Shown piece by piece: positions 55,326 to 64,000 of a DNA stretch of 64,000 nt. Location: the NCBI RefSeq assembly GCF_040834005.1, contig NZ_CP162129.1, positions 7,501 to 71,500 on the forward strand. Reading direction: 5' to 3'. A program made the position numbers and the translations under genes. Source of the DNA: Paenibacillus sp. PL2-23. GTDB taxonomy: Bacteria > Bacillota > Bacilli > Paenibacillales > Paenibacillaceae. Position 1 is the stretch's first letter. Every line of letters begins with the position of its first letter. A model generated the notes under the pieces. The model saw nothing but the letters and a program-made list of their open reading frames with translations. It was not told where the DNA came from and searched no databases.

Positions 55326-56252
55326 CTACAGGAAGATGTTCACGACCAGCCAGAAGATCGACGCGGCCAGCAGGAAGCCTGATGTAGCGGCTAGTCCCTT
55401 GAGCCATCCCGGCAGCGACGAGCTCCGGCGCGTATCCCGCCGGTGCAGCAGGATGCGCCACGCCTCCGCGCCCTCCACGGCGTCCCCAAACTGCCCGTCC
55501 AAGGCCCGGCGCAGCCAGCCCATGACCGGCTTAAGCGCGGGATTCGCCTGAGCAACCGCCATCAGCTCGTCGATGGAGCGGTTCTGTGGAAGCAGCTCCT
55601 TCGTCAACGCATGGAGGCGCTTCGGCTCATGCAGCTGTATGCAGAGCACGGCGAAGGAGAACAGATCGTACTTCGCGTCCGCGGCTCGCGAGCCGCCATT
55701 CCAATAGCCGCGATCGTAGATTTCCGTGAACTGCCGGATGCTTTTGCCCGCTGCCGTAACGCCGCCGTAATCGACCAGCTCCACATGTCCGTAGTCCGCC
55801 ACCATCACATTCTCGACCTTGAGGTCTCCGAACACCCAGCCGGCCCGGTGCAGCTTCGCCAGCTTCCCCAGCAGATTGAGGGCGACCAGCGGGAACCATT
55901 CCGCTCCCTGCTCCTTCAGGTAGCTGGCCAGCGTGGAGCCTCTGACATAGCGCATGATGTAGAATGAATATTCCCGCCCGTCCGGCCCGTACAAGTCGTC
56001 GACATCATACAGGAACGGCTCCGAGCCGGCGCCGCGCTGCTTGTCCAGCGACTTCATCACGTTAATCTCCGACTGCAGATCGACGGCATCCGCTCCAACC
56101 TTCATGGCGAACCATTCCCGTTCTCTCTGCACGAGATACACCTTGCCATTTGCCCCTTCGCCCAGCAGCCGCTCCACGCGGTATTTGCCCAGCTTCCACT
56201 TGCCAACGACGATCGCGCCGCGGCGCAGCTCCAGCTTAAACGACGTAGTCAC
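55326..56252 (-). CDS. yabT: Membrane-anchored serine/threonine protein kinase (YabT-like)
   Basis: 308 aa. The kinase domain shows the Gly-rich loop LLGEGANGKVYLV, the catalytic loop FGDLKVENVMV (in place of HRD) and DYG in place of DFG in VELVDYGGV. Residues 283-308 form one C-terminal transmembrane helix (LAATSGFLLAASIFWLVVNIFL), as in YabT of B. subtilis, a sporulation kinase between yabS and tilS. It overlaps the VWA gene by 17 bases. Confidence 0.9.
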   Translation of the reverse strand: MTTSFKLELRRGAIVVGKWKLGKYRVERLLGEGANGKVYLVQREREWFAMKVGADAVDLQSEINVMKSLDKQRGAGSEPFLYDVDDLYGPDGREYSFYIMRYVRGSTLASYLKEQGAEWFPLVALNLLGKLAKLHRAGWVFGDLKVENVMVADYGHVELVDYGGVTAAGKSIRQFTEIYDRGYWNGGSRAADAKYDLFSFAVLCIQLHEPKRLHALTKELLPQNRSIDELMAVAQANPALKPVMGWLRRALDGQFGDAVEGAEAWRILLHRRDTRRSSSLPGWLKGLAATSGFLLAASIFWLVVNIFL

Positions 56253-57009
56253 CTAACATCCCATCCGTTTCTTCTCTTCCTCTTCGAGCGTGATCACCCG
56301 GCATGCCGTAGCTGCTGCCTCGCTCCCCGGCTTGTCCAGCCTGTCCGCCGCGGTAATACTCCACTACCTGCATAATCGCGGGACCCGTCGGCGTCGTCCC
56401 CCCCATCTGCAGCTTGGGGAAGATCGAGTGCACGCCGTTCAAGTGGCTGGTCCACGAGAGGTCCATCACACAATCATCCCCATGCCTGGAGCCGGGAAAA
56501 TGGAACACCGCTATCTCACTCTTACCCTGCCTGGCCTGCAGGCTAAGCATCAAATCGCGAATAGCCTCCTCCACTGCGGCCAGCTTCGGCTTCATGCTTG
56601 CGCTGGCGTCGATGAGCAGCGCCACCTGCAGCCCGGAAGTCTCGCCCAGCTCGTCTATGACGCGTACAACCTCGCCTCGCTTCTCCGGCGGCAGCGCCTC
56701 GATGGAGCCGTTGCCGAGCACATGCTTCAGCTCCTTCTGGACAGCAAGCTGAATCGTCTGCACGACCGTCTTCCTCGTCATCATCTGCACCGTCTGCGAC
56801 AGCTGCCGCATGTTCACCAATCGGCTCAAGCCGCCGCCCGCGCGCGCAATCTCCTCGATCTCCGCCGCACCTAGCTCGCCTACGTCGCCATGATCCAGCA
56901 CGCCTACTACGTTGACGTTAATGCCCTCCGACTTGGCATGCGCCGCCGCCACCACGGGACTGAGGCCCACATTGGAGCAGCCGTCTGTAATGAGCAATAT
57001 TTGTTTCAT
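56236..57009 (-). CDS. yabS: von Willebrand factor A-domain protein (YabS-like)
   Basis: 257 aa. VWA motifs are QILLITDGCSNVGLSP at the N-terminus and the MIDAS pattern LLIDASASMKPKL with GGTTPTGPAI further on. The position before the yabT-like kinase and tilS matches yabS. The last 30 residues are low-complexity and basic and may be poorly conserved. An extended -10 element (TGCTATAAT, 57119-57114) lies upstream and GGAGGG nine bases before the ATG. Confidence 0.85.
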   Translation of the reverse strand: MKQILLITDGCSNVGLSPVVAAAHAKSEGINVNVVGVLDHGDVGELGAAEIEEIARAGGGLSRLVNMRQLSQTVQMMTRKTVVQTIQLAVQKELKHVLGNGSIEALPPEKRGEVVRVIDELGETSGLQVALLIDASASMKPKLAAVEEAIRDLMLSLQARQGKSEIAVFHFPGSRHGDDCVMDLSWTSHLNGVHSIFPKLQMGGTTPTGPAIMQVVEYYRGGQAGQAGERGSSYGMPGDHARRGREETDGMLGDYVV

Positions 57010-57258: not shown

Positions 57259-57939
57259 TTACTGTGCGTAATCACCTGAATAATTAATGAGCGACACGTC
57301 GTGCACGCCCTCGATCTGGCTCAATCGCTGGACAAACGCCGTGTTGTCGTCCCGCAGCATAATCTCGACTGTTATTTCTACAAAATCTTTACGGACGGTC
57401 TTCGACTTCAGCTTGGTGTTCAACTTGCGCATCTGCACGCGAAGCTCTCCTGTAGCTTCATCCGTATGTCTGACGATAAGCAGATACGCTTGCTCGCGAA
57501 CCTTCCGTTTGGACAACCAGAAGAGAGTTAAACCAAGAATCAGGGATCCGCCAAGCGCGAGCGGATACATCTTGGCGCCGCTCGCGATACCTGCCGAGAT
57601 AGCCCAGAACATATAGACAATGTCGAGCGGATCTTTCACGGCAGTACGGAACCTGACGATACTGAGCGCTCCTACCATACCTAGAGACAAGACAATATTC
57701 GTGCTAATCGTCATAATGATTAGGGAAGTAATCATCGTCATTAATACGAACGACACGTTATAGTTGTAACTGTACACCACACCCCTGAACGTCTTACGGT
57801 ATACCCAATAAATAAATAAGCCGATTATAAACGCGCAGAGCAGACCAAGAAACATATCCACATACGAAATGCTTCGGAAGGACTCCAGATGCAATACGCT
57901 CTTTTTTATGACATCTTGAAAATTAATGGCATCTCCCAT
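57259..57939 (-). CDS. DUF4956 membrane protein
   Basis: 226 aa. About four transmembrane helices occupy the first 150 residues, with the family signature SLGMVGALSIVRFRTAVKDPLDIVYMFWAISAG. The soluble C-terminal domain of about 75 residues ends in EGVHDVSLINYSGDY. The function is unknown, but genes of this family often sit next to VTC-domain and CotH genes, exactly as here. It is the last gene of the operon, 13 bases after the VTC gene. Confidence 0.9.
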   Translation of the reverse strand: MGDAINFQDVIKKSVLHLESFRSISYVDMFLGLLCAFIIGLFIYWVYRKTFRGVVYSYNYNVSFVLMTMITSLIIMTISTNIVLSLGMVGALSIVRFRTAVKDPLDIVYMFWAISAGIASGAKMYPLALGGSLILGLTLFWLSKRKVREQAYLLIVRHTDEATGELRVQMRKLNTKLKSKTVRKDFVEITVEIMLRDDNTAFVQRLSQIEGVHDVSLINYSGDYAQ

Positions 57940-57952
57940 AACAGCTAAGCCC

Positions 57953-58663
57953 CTATTCTTTAAAATGCTTCAAGTTAACTTCCTTGCAAATGACGTATTT
58001 CGAGATAGAGGAACGAACATGATGATCGGGTTTTACAACCTGTCGCACATGATCCGCCAAAAATGAATCGAACTTCACTTCCAGTATGGTTCTGGGCGCA
58101 TCTATTGCTTCCTCCAGAACTAGATGGGGGTCAAATATATCAAATGTGTTCGTCCCCGCCGACAACTTCTTGTCAAATGTTATACGCACATTTCCAAACT
58201 CGTAAATGTAGGCTGCCCGCCAATAATCAACGATAGCTGCAGGCCGGAAACTCCTGTGAGCAAGCGCGGAATAAAATTCCACCAGCAGCATTTCGTCTTT
58301 ACGCAAGAGGCAGTCATAGTCGCCGTTCAAAATGTCGTCGTACTCGCTGCGAGTGATGCGCGCTGATTCCTTACGCACATAATCTCCGAATTTGCTTTTC
58401 CTCTCAACACTGATGTAATCATCGCTGCCGTTGTACGCCCTAATCCGGTACTTATCCCGCTTAAATTCACCATTATTCTTATCATGCAGCGCATGACGGT
58501 GCGGACTGTCAAAGTACAGGCTTCGAATATTATAGCCTTCGCTGCTTACCGAATGCGGGTCCAATGCGAGCAACGACGACACTCTATGATGCAGAGCCAC
58601 GTAATCATGAAGATGCAAATAATATTTATGCTCCGTCCGAAACTTGCCTGCGGATCTAACCAT
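57953..58663 (-). CDS. VTC-domain polyphosphate polymerase-like protein
   Basis: 236 aa consisting of one VTC tunnel domain: FRTEHKYYLHLHDYVAL, YNIRSLYFDSPH, KRDKYRIRAYNG, ISVERKSKFGDYV and TILEVKFDSFL. The alternating basic residues and glutamates resemble the triphosphate-tunnel active site of yeast Vtc4, which makes polyphosphate from ATP. It has no membrane helix. Whether this bacterial form makes polyphosphate is not shown. Confidence 0.88.
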   Translation of the reverse strand: MVRSAGKFRTEHKYYLHLHDYVALHHRVSSLLALDPHSVSSEGYNIRSLYFDSPHRHALHDKNNGEFKRDKYRIRAYNGSDDYISVERKSKFGDYVRKESARITRSEYDDILNGDYDCLLRKDEMLLVEFYSALAHRSFRPAAIVDYWRAAYIYEFGNVRITFDKKLSAGTNTFDIFDPHLVLEEAIDAPRTILEVKFDSFLADHVRQVVKPDHHVRSSISKYVICKEVNLKHFKE

Positions 58664-58665
58664 GA

Positions 58666-61600
58666 TTAGTACACCTCGAACTCTCTTATCCCATAGTAGT
58701 GGTTATCGTCGGAATCGATGTACATGTCGAATGAAGACTGCTCATGCCCTTGAGTATCACGCACTTTGACCGACCAATAATACAAGCCAGGCTGTAATGC
58801 ATTCACTTCAAATCTAGTTTCTTGGATGCCTGTTGCAGAGGCCACGATTTGGCTTAGCTGTGGATCCCGCGCTACCTTCACATCATAGACGAGATCATCT
58901 CCCTGCAAATCATAGGAGACCCCCCACTGGAAGATATGCTTTCCATCCTCAACCACGACGACATCTTGATAGAATGGCTTGGGCTTCTCCAGGTCATCCA
59001 GGAAACGCTGCACCGCCCTCTCCGGAGTCTTCTTCAAAATACGCAATTCCGCTTCAAAATCGGAATTGCGACCAGGCAGGAATTGAATATCCGGATTCCG
59101 GAACAAATAAGGCTTAACGACAGGCGAATAACTATCCAAGAGCTTGCCTATCCGCTGCTCATTCACAATAGCTGAAAGCTCCTCTATCTTCGCTTTTAGC
59201 TCCTCCACATGCTGCGCGCTTCTGAAATAACGATTGTGCAGAATGGATCCCCAATAATTGCTGATACCAGCTTGATGGGGATGTATTGTATTCTGCCGCC
59301 TTTGCAGCTCCCATCCTCCGTCATAGTCCCAAGGCAAGATATACCATGTTTCCGAATTAAGCGGGGAATATAAGTAGAAGTTGTTGGCATCCGTGTCCAT
59401 GTTATCGGTCAATATATTGAACGCGGTCCAGGTCAAGAAATTTTCCTTGTCGAAATGCTTCGCGATGATATCATCAATTGATATTTGATAATTGTTAACA
59501 TCGTCCAGCATGCGAATGAGCTTATCGTGGTCCTCTCGTCCCTTGATTTCCAGAATCGTCTCGAAGCTTGATCTATCGTACTTCGGATCATTCTGCGATC
59601 GGATTTGCTCCGGGTATCGATTAAATTCAAAAAAAGTAACCTTGTACAAATATCCGTTCGAATCCAGCAAATGTGATTGCAGAAATTTTTTGTTTGGCTG
59701 CTCGACATGTGTATATAAACCATAATCGATAAACGAAGCCTCTTTCCTTTCCGACTGATCTTTCACATACACCCGAACAAATTGCGTCCGCAGGCTTGTT
59801 ATATTGTCGATCTCTTCAAGCAGATCAAAACTAAGCTTATTGCGGACTCTGCTTAAATCCAGACTATGCTTGTTTAAATTGAATGTTCTCTGATCAAGCC
59901 AGGTCCCAGCCTCATCCTTCAGCTTAATCCGATATGACTTCTGCGGGGTTCCCCAGGCTGTCTTGCCCCGCAATGTAATCGTGCCGTTGGCCCGATCCTC
60001 TCCGTAACCGAACAGCCCCGAAGCAGGACCTTCACCATCCGGCTTTCCTTCTTGAACGATTACTTCAAGCTGGCCCTGGCTCGTATAATCAGGCAATCGA
60101 TTCAAGCCATACCATGTCAAAGGCGCAGCGTCTGAGGAATAGTCCGGAAGAATCGTGACATACAATGTCTTAAGAGAGTGATCCGTATCTCTCTCATATA
60201 TTCGTTTATCTTCGGACAACTTCGAGGAGTTTAGCAGAGATGACTGCTCAGGCAAAATCTCCGCGGGAATGGAACGGCCTTCTGTGGCGTTAGTACATCC
60301 CGAGAGTGTAATCGCGGCCACAAGCGTTAACGTTGCTGTTGTCCGCGTTTTGGAGAAAAACGATCTGTTTTTTGTCCTTCTAGCCTGCTCCTTGACGTGT
60401 AGCGGCTGCGAACAGAACGTATAGTAGTCAATATTACGTAATATATGCAGCAGTCTGGCAATGACGGCCACAAGCGACAAGAAGGATGCTGCGAACATGC
60501 CCATACCATCCAGCTCCAGCCTCATCATGCCATACGATAAACCTATGTTTAAGAAAAAGAATAAAGCTCCCAAATAAAGTACGCCTTTCCGATCGTCGAA
60601 ATATAATAAAATATGACAGAGCACAAAAAATAAAATAAATAAAAAATAAGCCAGTGCAAGAATATTGAATAAGTCAAGCTGCGCCATGGTAAAGCCAATA
60701 TTCGGCAGGAACTTAATGCCGAGGGCAATCGCCAGGATGGTAAATACCAGTTGAACCTCCATGACAAAGCTTATTTCGCGTACTAACGTTTTTTGCATTT
60801 TCTGCTTTGCCCGCTGTATATCCCGAATCGTTCCGCCATTCAATATATCGGCATAATACTTCTTGAACGATTCATAGAAAGAAGTTTCTACCGACACGAC
60901 GAAGGTAACCAATGTAGGCAAAACAGACAAGTATGCGAAGAATACCGGCAAATCGTAATAGGGCATGACGAAATATCGATTAGCAATCTCATCTCCGCCA
61001 GGACCGAACCAATAGACAAAATTATGAACATAGACGCCGGAATATAGAGCGCATCCAATGAAGAACAGCGAGCGGTATTTCTTGAAGTAAGTCAGAAATT
61101 CAAAGAAATGCGTTGTTGACGCTTTCGGCAGCTTATGCCTGAAATGATGAAAGGACAGGCAAATAATGAGAAGAAAACCTGCATCGATAGCTAGAATGGC
61201 AGCTGTTGTTGGCCGCATGTCCGTGAGGGCACGAAGCAGCCATCCGCATAACAAGGCAACGGCTACGCCAAACGCGTAGCTTCGCACGATTCTCATATAA
61301 TCCTTCAGCGCCGACAGGAAGACGCTTTGCAGCCAAACAACGGTCATGGTGACAAAAAACAGATAAGACGCCGCTTTATAATCCCAGCTGGCTTCCACCT
61401 TCCACAAGAAAACGCCGGCCGTAACCGCAGCAAGCGGCAGCATAAGAATGAGTACCCCGTTTAGAGAAGAAAGCAGCCGATCGTATTTTCTTTCGTAGAT
61501 CATGTCGGCAATATAACGGGTCAGCACAATGGATATGCCGCAAGTCATAACAATAGAAAAGATAAAGCAATAGGACACCGTAGCAATATACAACTCCCAT

Positions 61601-61773
61601 TCCAGGTAGTTGTTCATGCCTGCCGACATCATTCTCTGTAAAGCCAACACAAGCACCATGCTTAATATCATGGGACCCACGGTTGTTATAGAGGAGTAAG
61701 CGTATGCTTTGACGTTATTGATTAATCCTTGCTGTCGGAAGAGCTTCCTAAGCTCGAATCCTATCCCGGCCAC
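58666..61773 (-). CDS. PelG-type membrane protein fused to a CotH-kinase lipoprotein
   Basis: 1035 aa with GTG start overlapping the pelF stop. Residues 1-470 form a PelG-like multi-helix membrane domain starting MAGIGFELRKLFRQQG and including YWFGPGGDEIANRYFVMPYYDLPVFFAYLS. Residues 471-493 look like a complete lipoprotein signal (KTRTTATLTLVAAITLSGC, Cys 493). A CotH domain follows, with NMDTDANNFYLY and ILPWDYDGGW as candidate catalytic segments near 790-825, then a fibronectin-like C-terminus (about 925-1035). I find no ATG, GTG or TTG that could start the CotH part before its signal. Confidence 0.88.
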   Translation of the reverse strand: MAGIGFELRKLFRQQGLINNVKAYAYSSITTVGPMILSMVLVLALQRMMSAGMNNYLEWELYIATVSYCFIFSIVMTCGISIVLTRYIADMIYERKYDRLLSSLNGVLILMLPLAAVTAGVFLWKVEASWDYKAASYLFFVTMTVVWLQSVFLSALKDYMRIVRSYAFGVAVALLCGWLLRALTDMRPTTAAILAIDAGFLLIICLSFHHFRHKLPKASTTHFFEFLTYFKKYRSLFFIGCALYSGVYVHNFVYWFGPGGDEIANRYFVMPYYDLPVFFAYLSVLPTLVTFVVSVETSFYESFKKYYADILNGGTIRDIQRAKQKMQKTLVREISFVMEVQLVFTILAIALGIKFLPNIGFTMAQLDLFNILALAYFLFILFFVLCHILLYFDDRKGVLYLGALFFFLNIGLSYGMMRLELDGMGMFAASFLSLVAVIARLLHILRNIDYYTFCSQPLHVKEQARRTKNRSFFSKTRTTATLTLVAAITLSGCTNATEGRSIPAEILPEQSSLLNSSKLSEDKRIYERDTDHSLKTLYVTILPDYSSDAAPLTWYGLNRLPDYTSQGQLEVIVQEGKPDGEGPASGLFGYGEDRANGTITLRGKTAWGTPQKSYRIKLKDEAGTWLDQRTFNLNKHSLDLSRVRNKLSFDLLEEIDNITSLRTQFVRVYVKDQSERKEASFIDYGLYTHVEQPNKKFLQSHLLDSNGYLYKVTFFEFNRYPEQIRSQNDPKYDRSSFETILEIKGREDHDKLIRMLDDVNNYQISIDDIIAKHFDKENFLTWTAFNILTDNMDTDANNFYLYSPLNSETWYILPWDYDGGWELQRRQNTIHPHQAGISNYWGSILHNRYFRSAQHVEELKAKIEELSAIVNEQRIGKLLDSYSPVVKPYLFRNPDIQFLPGRNSDFEAELRILKKTPERAVQRFLDDLEKPKPFYQDVVVVEDGKHIFQWGVSYDLQGDDLVYDVKVARDPQLSQIVASATGIQETRFEVNALQPGLYYWSVKVRDTQGHEQSSFDMYIDSDDNHYYGIREFEVY

Positions 61774-63188
61774 TACTGCTCACCCCCCACTTTCTGATAT
61801 AGTCTACGATAGTTTTTGATTACATCTTCCTGACGATAGAATCTCTTGACTCGTTCATAAGCATTACGGCCCATCTTCTCGCGAAGCTGCCGATCCTTGC
61901 CCAATTGAATGGCTGCCATAGCGAGCTTCTCATAATGCATAACAGGAGCAATTAGTCCCGCTTCTCCTAATCCATCGTCCATTCCACTGAGGAGTTCCTT
62001 GCAGCTGCCAACGTTTGTCGCTACGAATGGCTTGGCTCCGGCCATACCTTCCAATATAGCCAGGGGTTGTCCTTCGCTTATGCTCGTTAGCATAAATAGA
62101 TCCATCATACCCATATAATCGAGAATCCGAACAGCTCCCGTAAAGTGAACATCCTTTAGTTCAAGCGCAGCTTGCAGCTGCAAACATTCTTCGTAGTATT
62201 GCTTGTCCTCTTCATAAGGCCCCATTACATAAAATTCTGTTTCAGGGAGCTCCCGCTTAATGACTGCAAAGCTTTGAAGCATGGTTTTAATGTCCTTAAT
62301 CGGCACAACCCGTATAATGGCCCCGATTCGCAGTTTTCCATCGGTTGTCTGCGCGCGAATACTCATATAATCATCCACATTTACACCGTTTGGTATAATA
62401 TCGATTTTGCCTGCATCACAGCCAAGCTCGATTTGAATTTCCTTGTTGCGGCGGAACAGTGTCACTACTTGATCAGCCGCTTCGTAAGCGCAGCTGGAGA
62501 GCCGATAGAAATATTCAATCCATAAATCCTTGAAATAGCCCTTTACCCAGTCAGCCTTAATAATTTCTTCCTCACGTTCACGGGAATAAATACCGTGCTC
62601 AGTTAGAATAAAGGGTTTGTTATACAAATGCTTCGCCAGTGAGCCGACTACTCCCGCATAGCCTGTCGATACACTGTGATACATATCGGCTTCCGGAATA
62701 TCCTCACGTATCGTTAACAATAAAGGCAGTATCATGGATCGAACCGTCCAGAACATCTCCGTAAACGGAACAAGCGGATAATGTTTGGCGCAAAGCTCCT
62801 CCAGCAGGTCGAAGAAATCCTTGCTCGTTAAAAAATCAGCCGCATTGCGGAACTTTGGGCTTCGCAGCATATCGAACAAGCCACTCCAGTCCATGTCGAG
62901 CTTCTCGCCCAGCAAAGCCTGCAGGCTTTGTTTTTGAACATCTGTTAATCGAAATCTCTTGCCCCAGATGCCTTCTTCCTCCAGATAGGAATCGAGAAAC
63001 ATCTCCTTCACTTCCTTCACATTAGCCGGCAGCTTGTATTTAAACTGGCCTTTCTGCGATCTGGAAGCTCCTATTGCGAATATAATAAATTCATGCTCGG
63101 GCATCTGGTTAACAATAGCATGTATCCAGCTGGAAACCCCGCCAGTAATGTAAGGATAAGAACCTTCTGCAATCAAGCAAATCTTCAT
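61773..63188 (-). CDS. pelF: PelF-type GT4 glycosyltransferase
   Basis: 471 aa. The PelF N-terminus MKICLIAEGSYPYITGGVSSWIHAI, the middle segment YHSVSTGYAGVVGSLAKHLYNKPFILTEHGIYSRERE and the donor domain (RIGAIIRVVPIKDIKTMLQSF, TSISEGQPLAILEGMAGAKPFVATNVGSC) are all present. In Pseudomonas, PelF is the cytosolic transferase that builds the Pel polymer. It lies four bases after the upstream gene. Confidence 0.93.
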   Translation of the reverse strand: MKICLIAEGSYPYITGGVSSWIHAIVNQMPEHEFIIFAIGASRSQKGQFKYKLPANVKEVKEMFLDSYLEEEGIWGKRFRLTDVQKQSLQALLGEKLDMDWSGLFDMLRSPKFRNAADFLTSKDFFDLLEELCAKHYPLVPFTEMFWTVRSMILPLLLTIREDIPEADMYHSVSTGYAGVVGSLAKHLYNKPFILTEHGIYSREREEEIIKADWVKGYFKDLWIEYFYRLSSCAYEAADQVVTLFRRNKEIQIELGCDAGKIDIIPNGVNVDDYMSIRAQTTDGKLRIGAIIRVVPIKDIKTMLQSFAVIKRELPETEFYVMGPYEEDKQYYEECLQLQAALELKDVHFTGAVRILDYMGMMDLFMLTSISEGQPLAILEGMAGAKPFVATNVGSCKELLSGMDDGLGEAGLIAPVMHYEKLAMAAIQLGKDRQLREKMGRNAYERVKRFYRQEDVIKNYRRLYQKVGGEQ

Positions 63189-63192
63189 ACGT

Positions 63193-64000
63193 TCACCCGC
63201 CTAATTCAATAGCAAATTGAGCCTTCTGTATCTCGACCAAATACGTCTGCTCATCTATCTTCCGAATTTTGCAATGCTCAAGTCTTCCAATGCTGCGATC
63301 TGTCCGCAGCACATAATATAGCTCGCCGCTAAAAGACTGGACGGTGCCTGCAATACGATTCGGCTCTCGCTCAATCTTTACGTTTGAACGCAGAGCTTGC
63401 GCCACCGATAAACCAGCTTCCGTCGAGGTCATATCCCGAAGCCATGGATAGGTTTGATTCAACCGGCCAAGCAGCTCTGTAAAATCCTTGAAAAGATCGT
63501 CCCAATTCTGGTTATTGCTTCTTTCTTTGTCGAGAAGGTCGTCCGGGTGAATAAAGTGTGAAAACACACCAATACTGGTAATCGCATTTACTTCCAGCCA
63601 TTGCATGTAAGGCTCCTCGAAGTAGCCGGAAGTGACTCTCGGCATTTCGATAATGCCATCTTCCGCCACCTCGAACTCCTGAATATAGGAACGGTTGTAG
63701 TAATCCGTGTCATATAAGGACGCAATCACTGTAAGGTCCGGCCATCCTGCCTTCAGCGCCTCTCTGCCCGCTTCACTCAGCGCGTTGGAAGGCGGCACGT
63801 AAGACATTGCGGTGTAGCTGGGAAATGCTGTGCCTAGATAACGGACAACCTCTTCAACAGCCTCCTCCATATAAGCTTGACTTGTCCATGGATGATATTC
63901 GTAATAATCGGCAATTGACTTGTCCGTAATGAGCGACTGATGGTTGTAACCGTGAATGGATATTTCCCCCCCGCTCTTAATGACCTCTCGTCCGTATGCA
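63193..64000 (-). CDS. DUF2194/polysaccharide-deacetylase-like protein, C-terminal part
   Basis: The reading frame is open to the right edge, so the 5' end lies outside. The visible 268 codons include GGEISIHGYNHQSL, MSYVPPSNALSEAGREAL, and FSHFIHPDDLLD, the pattern of carbohydrate-esterase-4-like folds in Pel loci. The C-terminus is a beta-rich domain ending FAIELGG. It may deacetylate or trim the Pel-like polymer as PelA does. An internal ATG at 63870 is not the start, because conserved sequence lies upstream of it. Confidence 0.8.
   Translation of the reverse strand, partial: AYGREVIKSGGEISIHGYNHQSLITDKSIADYYEYHPWTSQAYMEEAVEEVVRYLGTAFPSYTAMSYVPPSNALSEAGREALKAGWPDLTVIASLYDTDYYNRSYIQEFEVAEDGIIEMPRVTSGYFEEPYMQWLEVNAITSIGVFSHFIHPDDLLDKERSNNQNWDDLFKDFTELLGRLNQTYPWLRDMTSTEAGLSVAQALRSNVKIEREPNRIAGTVQSFSGELYYVLRTDRSIGRLEHCKIRKIDEQTYLVEIQKAQFAIELGG

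Follow-up and report, generated by a model that had tools for sequence, protein, structure and literature searches.

A Gram-positive Pel operon of Paenibacillus with the known CotH/VTC/DUF4956 accessory set and a PelG-CotH fusion bearing an internal lipobox

Pel is a widespread biofilm polymer. At one end of the window, by which we mean the whole 64,000-nucleotide stretch analyzed here (G000:C1:7501-71500, from a genome of 5.48 Mb in a single contig), Pel-type genes stand in one row with genes for a CotH-type kinase, a VTC-type polyphosphate polymerase and a DUF4956 membrane protein. Do these genes constitute a new system, and what might the three accessory proteins do for the polymer?

The pel operon and its published relatives

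The genes (Table 1) all lie on the minus strand, successive members being separated by -1 to +13 bases. In profile searches every gene call was well over its Pfam or NCBIfam cut-off; for PelF, the NF038011 equivalog score was 389.6 bits against a cut-off of 100. PelG has 12 hydrophobic segments by hydropathy, matching a 12-TM exporter. Since 22 of the 300 Bacilli genomes sampled have the identical gene order, chance is excluded; the window genes are confirmed as genuine and as forming one tight operon.

Table 1. Features of the operon. Positions are those of the window, except where L002 is given; L002 positions belong to the same genome and run past the window edge.
Feature	Position	Strand	Size	Basis
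DUF4956 membrane protein gene	57259..57939	(-)		Pfam PF16316 3.5e-11, hydropathy, AF2 model
VTC-type (triphosphate tunnel) polyphosphate polymerase, predicted cytosolic	57953..58663	(-)		Pfam PF09359 1.9e-35, Vtc4 profile match
PelG + CotH, single ORF	58666..61773	(-)	1,035 residues	PF16933 1.1e-129, PF08757 4.3e-59
Predicted internal lipoprotein signal peptide, lipobox L-S-G-C with Cys493	60295..60363	(-)	~residues 471-493 of the fusion	linker invariance
PelF glycosyltransferase	61773..63188	(-)		NCBIfam NF038011 2.5e-116
PelADA (DUF2194), membrane-anchored, deacetylase-like	63193 to beyond 64000	(-)		DUF2194 5.1e-83 on the in-window part
Full PelADA gene	L002 8194-10026		610 aa	PF09960 1.6e-154

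The original prediction, that a Pel-type set is joined here to CotH, a VTC-fold polyphosphate polymerase and DUF4956, is correct, with strong family matches, and the remaining pel genes that it placed to the right are present, PelE as a candidate. Epimerase-PelD, a PelE-like gene and full-length PelADA occupy L002 8194-13117, just past the window edge, and give the full order epimerase-PelD, PelE-like gene, PelADA, PelF, PelG-CotH, VTC, DUF4956 in adjoining DNA of the same genome. The epimerase-PelD fusion (728 aa) consists of an N-terminal sugar-nucleotide epimerase, with its motifs intact, and a C-terminal TM-GAF region with GAF matches. The c-di-GMP-type RxxD motif is present as RETD, 47 residues from the C-terminus, a motif match that by itself is not proof of c-di-GMP binding; a PDB phmmer search with the PelD region as query returned no PelD structure. 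The PelE-like protein (306 aa, 2 TM) has the expected position and size and homologues in other pel loci, and no Pfam match. PelADA is deacetylase-like by family match; the full protein shows a weak Polysacc_deac_1 match besides PF09960, and one N-terminal TM. Neither a c-di-GMP riboswitch nor another Rfam RNA was found at the gathering threshold near seven fused loci.

A secreted right-handed beta-helix protein, encoded on the same strand upstream of epimerase-PelD (L002 13371-16052, beyond the window), recurs beside the fused pel loci L003, L005, L006, L081 and L082, and might act on the polymer. Inspection by eye also placed close to the operon a protein that is phosphoesterase-like and has repeats of S-layer type (L002 16287-19436), and a von Willebrand-type protein together with a Ser/Thr protein kinase-like gene downstream of it (55326-57009).

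We searched all 300 Bacilli genomes of the sample for PelG, VTC, DUF4956 and CotH. Co-occurrence outside this genome had been set beforehand as the test of the original prediction, which passed it, and the accessory trio proved to be all-or-none: all three genes are found in 22 of 40 pelG loci, and none in the other 18. Epimerase-PelD accompanies the trio in 22/22 loci and occurs in 1/18 loci without it (Fisher 2e-10, a statistic that ignores kinship). This link is not universal: most rumen clostridial loci (L007-L018) have epimerase-PelD but no trio in the flanks that were fetched.

At the level of the gene set, the operon is of an already described kind; the fusion and the wider context of the accessory genes go further. 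CotH, polyphosphate polymerase and DUF4956, together with DUF4832 or a diguanylate cyclase/phosphodiesterase, were reported downstream of pelDEADAFG in streptococci, clostridia and bifidobacteria, where the accessory set correlates with epimerase-PelD (Whitfield et al. 2020, PMC7112168). The locus shares the gene set, its order and this correlation. It differs in its hosts (Paenibacillaceae and other Bacilli), in the intact epimerase motifs, in the fusion of PelG with CotH, and in that no DUF4832 gene was seen by Pfam among the operon proteins and the beta-helix neighbor. Bifidobacterial pel clusters likewise lack DUF4832 (PMC7112168), which is therefore not defining for the accessory group. 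In Streptococcus intermedius, the genes for CotH (SIR_1594), the polymerase (SIR_1593) and the MgtC/ACT-type membrane protein (SIR_1592) of the SIR_1591-1594 cluster also lie downstream of pel, but CotH is separate there (PMC12345266). What had been read from the window as a plausible new system was thus published in 2020 (PMC7112168) and knocked out in 2025 (PMC12345266): the Pel operon with its accessory trio and its missing genes to the right stood, while its newness did not.

The PelG-CotH fusion and its linker

PelG and CotH form one uninterrupted ORF, in which the PF16933 match covers residues 1-453 and the CotH match residues 600-915 of 1035, with the CotH-type kinase part spanning residues ~521-1035. 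The fusion is found in 10 loci (9 distinct proteins), the window included; the others are L003-L006 (three Paenibacillus and Psychrobacillus psychrodurans) and L079-L083, the nearest named relatives of the window among these fused loci being Paenibacillus. Within the 300-genome sample, 6 of the 22 trio-bearing loci are fused. The distinct fusions share 49-81% identity, and the fused rows cluster together in the PelG tree (99/98) as well as in the CotH tree (100/99); a single origin of the fusion is supported. Unfused relatives have pelG and cotH overlapping or at most about 60 bases apart, a distance that a missed stop or a frameshift could bridge in a sequencing or annotation artefact. The occurrence in ten loci, from different assemblies and genera and in one clade of both trees, rules this out and leaves the artefact a practically negligible probability. 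An internal translation start yielding a separate CotH was likewise rejected: no in-frame start preceded by a ribosome site is conserved, and L081 lacks an in-frame start altogether. Two tandem CotH genes were seen inside one pel operon in L085 (9423-12819) and in L086 (3447-7038).

The linker of ~60 residues between the two parts, P457 to L519, has only L490 and C493 as invariant residues in the alignment of the fusions. Every linker has a single Cys, which follows a basic stretch and 13-22 uncharged residues, and 9/9 distinct fusions conform to the classic lipoprotein pattern in its core (basic n-region, uncharged h-region, lipobox Cys). The 12 segments of PelG and a cytosolic N-terminus would place the basic linker inside, in the correct orientation for a lipoprotein signal. 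Genes for Lgt and LspA are present in the genome. Unfused CotHs of related Bacillales bear a lipobox at the N-terminus. In one other lineage (L088-L092) the CotHs have none and look TM-anchored, and lipidation is therefore not universally needed. We infer that Lgt attaches a lipid to the fusion and that LspA cleaves it, freeing PelG and a CotH lipoprotein. We conclude that the predicted lipidation at Cys493 is under selection; cleavage at this residue probably is as well.

The fusion might instead remain uncut, a 13th helix merely tethering CotH to the exporter in the manner of transporters with fused extracellular domains. Its retention across such wide divergence allows that physical linkage could be what is selected, and the AF2 model of the fusion, of low confidence and silent on processing, has a helix at 476-491. 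A tether, however, has no need for an invariant L-x-x-C, let alone for these two as the sole invariant linker residues and for exactly one Cys in each linker, and we regard it as rather unlikely. The processed precursor could then be described, tentatively and at somewhat less than even confidence, as a bacterial polyprotein, split at an internal lipobox into a 12-helix exporter and a lipoprotein kinase outside the cell; their amounts would be coupled and the kinase placed at the exporter, where it would act jointly with VTC-DUF4956 as a unit for polyphosphate synthesis and export. The open-access literature yielded nothing clearly relevant on membrane-protein fusions with a lipoprotein signal in their interior. 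With respect to published work, an exporter and a surface kinase made as one chain with a conserved internal lipoprotein signal is new. If true, the internal lipobox would be an unusual lipoprotein maturation that parts two proteins translated as one. By joining CotH directly to the exporter, the fusion also offers a clean test of the site of action of CotH.

The VTC-DUF4956 pair within and beyond pel loci

VTC matches the yeast Vtc4 profile at 2.2e-19. The equivalents of Vtc4 K200, R264, R266, K281, R361, R373, E426, K428 and K458 (numbered on the assumption that the crystal chain is offset by 3 residues) are all present and invariant in VTC, which is predicted to be catalytically intact. The R264A/R266A/E426N mutant was used in the structure paper of yeast VTC, a complex that couples polyphosphate synthesis to translocation (PMC9911596). 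As in the yeast complex of Vtc4 with Vtc1, a TTM polymerase with identical catalytic residues has a small membrane-protein partner. Unlike the yeast proteins, VTC here has neither an SPX domain nor a TM helix, and DUF4956 combines four TM helices, predicted by hydropathy, with an ACT-like domain and gave no sequence match to Vtc1. Sequence searches returned no significant relative of known structure for DUF4956. In a fold search with its AF2 model (pLDDT 74), the C-terminal domain matched the MgtC C-terminal domain and ACT folds, in agreement with Raju et al. (PMC12345266); Vtc1 was not in the list, though this search barely tested the TM part and is informative only for the ACT-like domain. 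That DUF4956 so strictly accompanies a soluble polymerase points to a role as the anchor of VTC, and perhaps in passing or sensing polyphosphate. The ACT-like/MgtC-like domain could indicate regulation instead of transport.

VTC and DUF4956 are a near-obligate pair: VTC is followed by a same-strand DUF4956 gene in 97 of 98 VTC places. These 98 comprise 22 with pel and CotH, 19 with CotH and without pel, and 57 with neither. Of the 19 non-pel trio sets, 15 read VTC-DUF4956-CotH along a single strand, and the other 4 have CotH divergent. Raju et al. report that they did not find the synteny of the pel-linked trio outside Pel (PMC12345266); when order is disregarded, all three genes do share loci elsewhere, as in the 19 here, in a different order. 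Given the near-obligate pair and these non-pel loci with CotH in other gene orders, the trio is probably a pre-existing module that was recruited to Pel. The VTC+DUF4956 tree gathers the pel-linked rows into a single group (89/96) that follows PelG and lies inside a mostly CotH-linked set (the root being for drawing only), a pattern consistent with a single recruitment of the trio to pel within the sample.

Could VTC-DUF4956, with or without CotH, then be a free-standing phosphate or stress module that is merely co-transcribed with pel? The 57 and 19 places without pel speak for it, as do the histidine kinase genes that precede several of the non-pel sets (Pfam-confirmed in L099, L101 and L103). 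Against this, the pel-linked pairs are a single tree group following PelG and always have CotH, CotH became fused to PelG in one lineage, and mutants in S. intermedius affect Pel and aggregation (PMC12345266); we consider such independence improbable. The use of the pair far beyond Pel makes its function open to study in Pel-free hosts. A second, lone VTC-DUF4956 pair occurs in the same genome (G000:C1:413845-415027). In L106 a purple-acid-phosphatase-like gene is divergent to the non-pel VTC-DUF4956-CotH set, and a gene of the same size is found there in L108. In L115 (5587-9060), VTC-DUF4956 is followed by a Cthe_2159 carbohydrate-binding lipoprotein-like gene in the place of CotH.

A proposed working of the operon and the role of CotH

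On balance, and with reservation, we favor the reading of this locus as a complete Gram-positive Pel operon (epimerase-PelD, PelE, PelADA, PelF, PelG) with the known CotH/VTC/DUF4956 set and a derived PelG-CotH single precursor, working as follows. The epimerase domain would help to supply UDP-GalNAc, and PelF would be gated by PelD/PelE via c-di-GMP. The Pel chain would be exported by PelG and deacetylated by PelADA to a cationic polymer. After the 12 TM helices of PelG, the basic linker would be cytosolic and the internal lipoprotein signal peptide would re-enter the membrane; Lgt would lipidate Cys493 and LspA would cut just before it. PelG would stay in the membrane, and CotH would become a lipoprotein at the surface, produced in a one-to-one ratio next to the exporter. 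VTC would make polyphosphate in the cytosol, anchored by DUF4956, which probably helps polyphosphate to reach or cross the membrane. Polyphosphate, as a polyanion, or CotH-dependent phosphorylation may then tune the retention of Pel, a polycation, and aggregation.

The accessory genes were each deleted in S. intermedius, and Pel production proved not to depend on any of them (Raju et al. 2025, PMC12345266). Aggregation was reduced in the mutants of CotH and of DUF4956, strongly so in one medium, with Pel lower in the CotH mutant and higher in the DUF4956 mutant; the polymerase mutant made Pel and kept aggregation, with no reported change (PMC12345266). The papers on these genes offer no molecular mechanism (PMC7112168, PMC12345266). 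It is possible, though we hold it doubtful, that CotH acts as an extracytoplasmic kinase on a protein of the Pel machinery (e.g. PelADA) or on the polymer, with its phosphoryl donor coming from VTC-DUF4956. CotH belongs by profile to the family of the solved Bacillus spore kinase (5jd9, 2.5e-49), and the QKSY, DxxxxxN and PWDYD motifs are conserved among pel-linked members; kinase core residues are thus in place, and CotH is a predicted kinase. The all-or-none trio and the lower Pel of the S. intermedius CotH mutant fit such a role, as does the regulation through protein phosphorylation suggested by Whitfield et al. (PMC7112168). Against this kinase role stands the lack of a known source of ATP outside the cell and of a substrate, and we found no precedent for a CotH using polyphosphate. 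In contrast to the spore kinase, CotH here is predicted to be exported, bears a lipobox, has an extra C-terminal beta domain and is encoded within a pel operon. In the CotH alignment, the metal-binding motif reads WDYD or WDFD in pel-linked CotHs, versus WDYN in most CotHs of the non-pel trios. The same genome encodes a second CotH at G000:C1:314684-315820.
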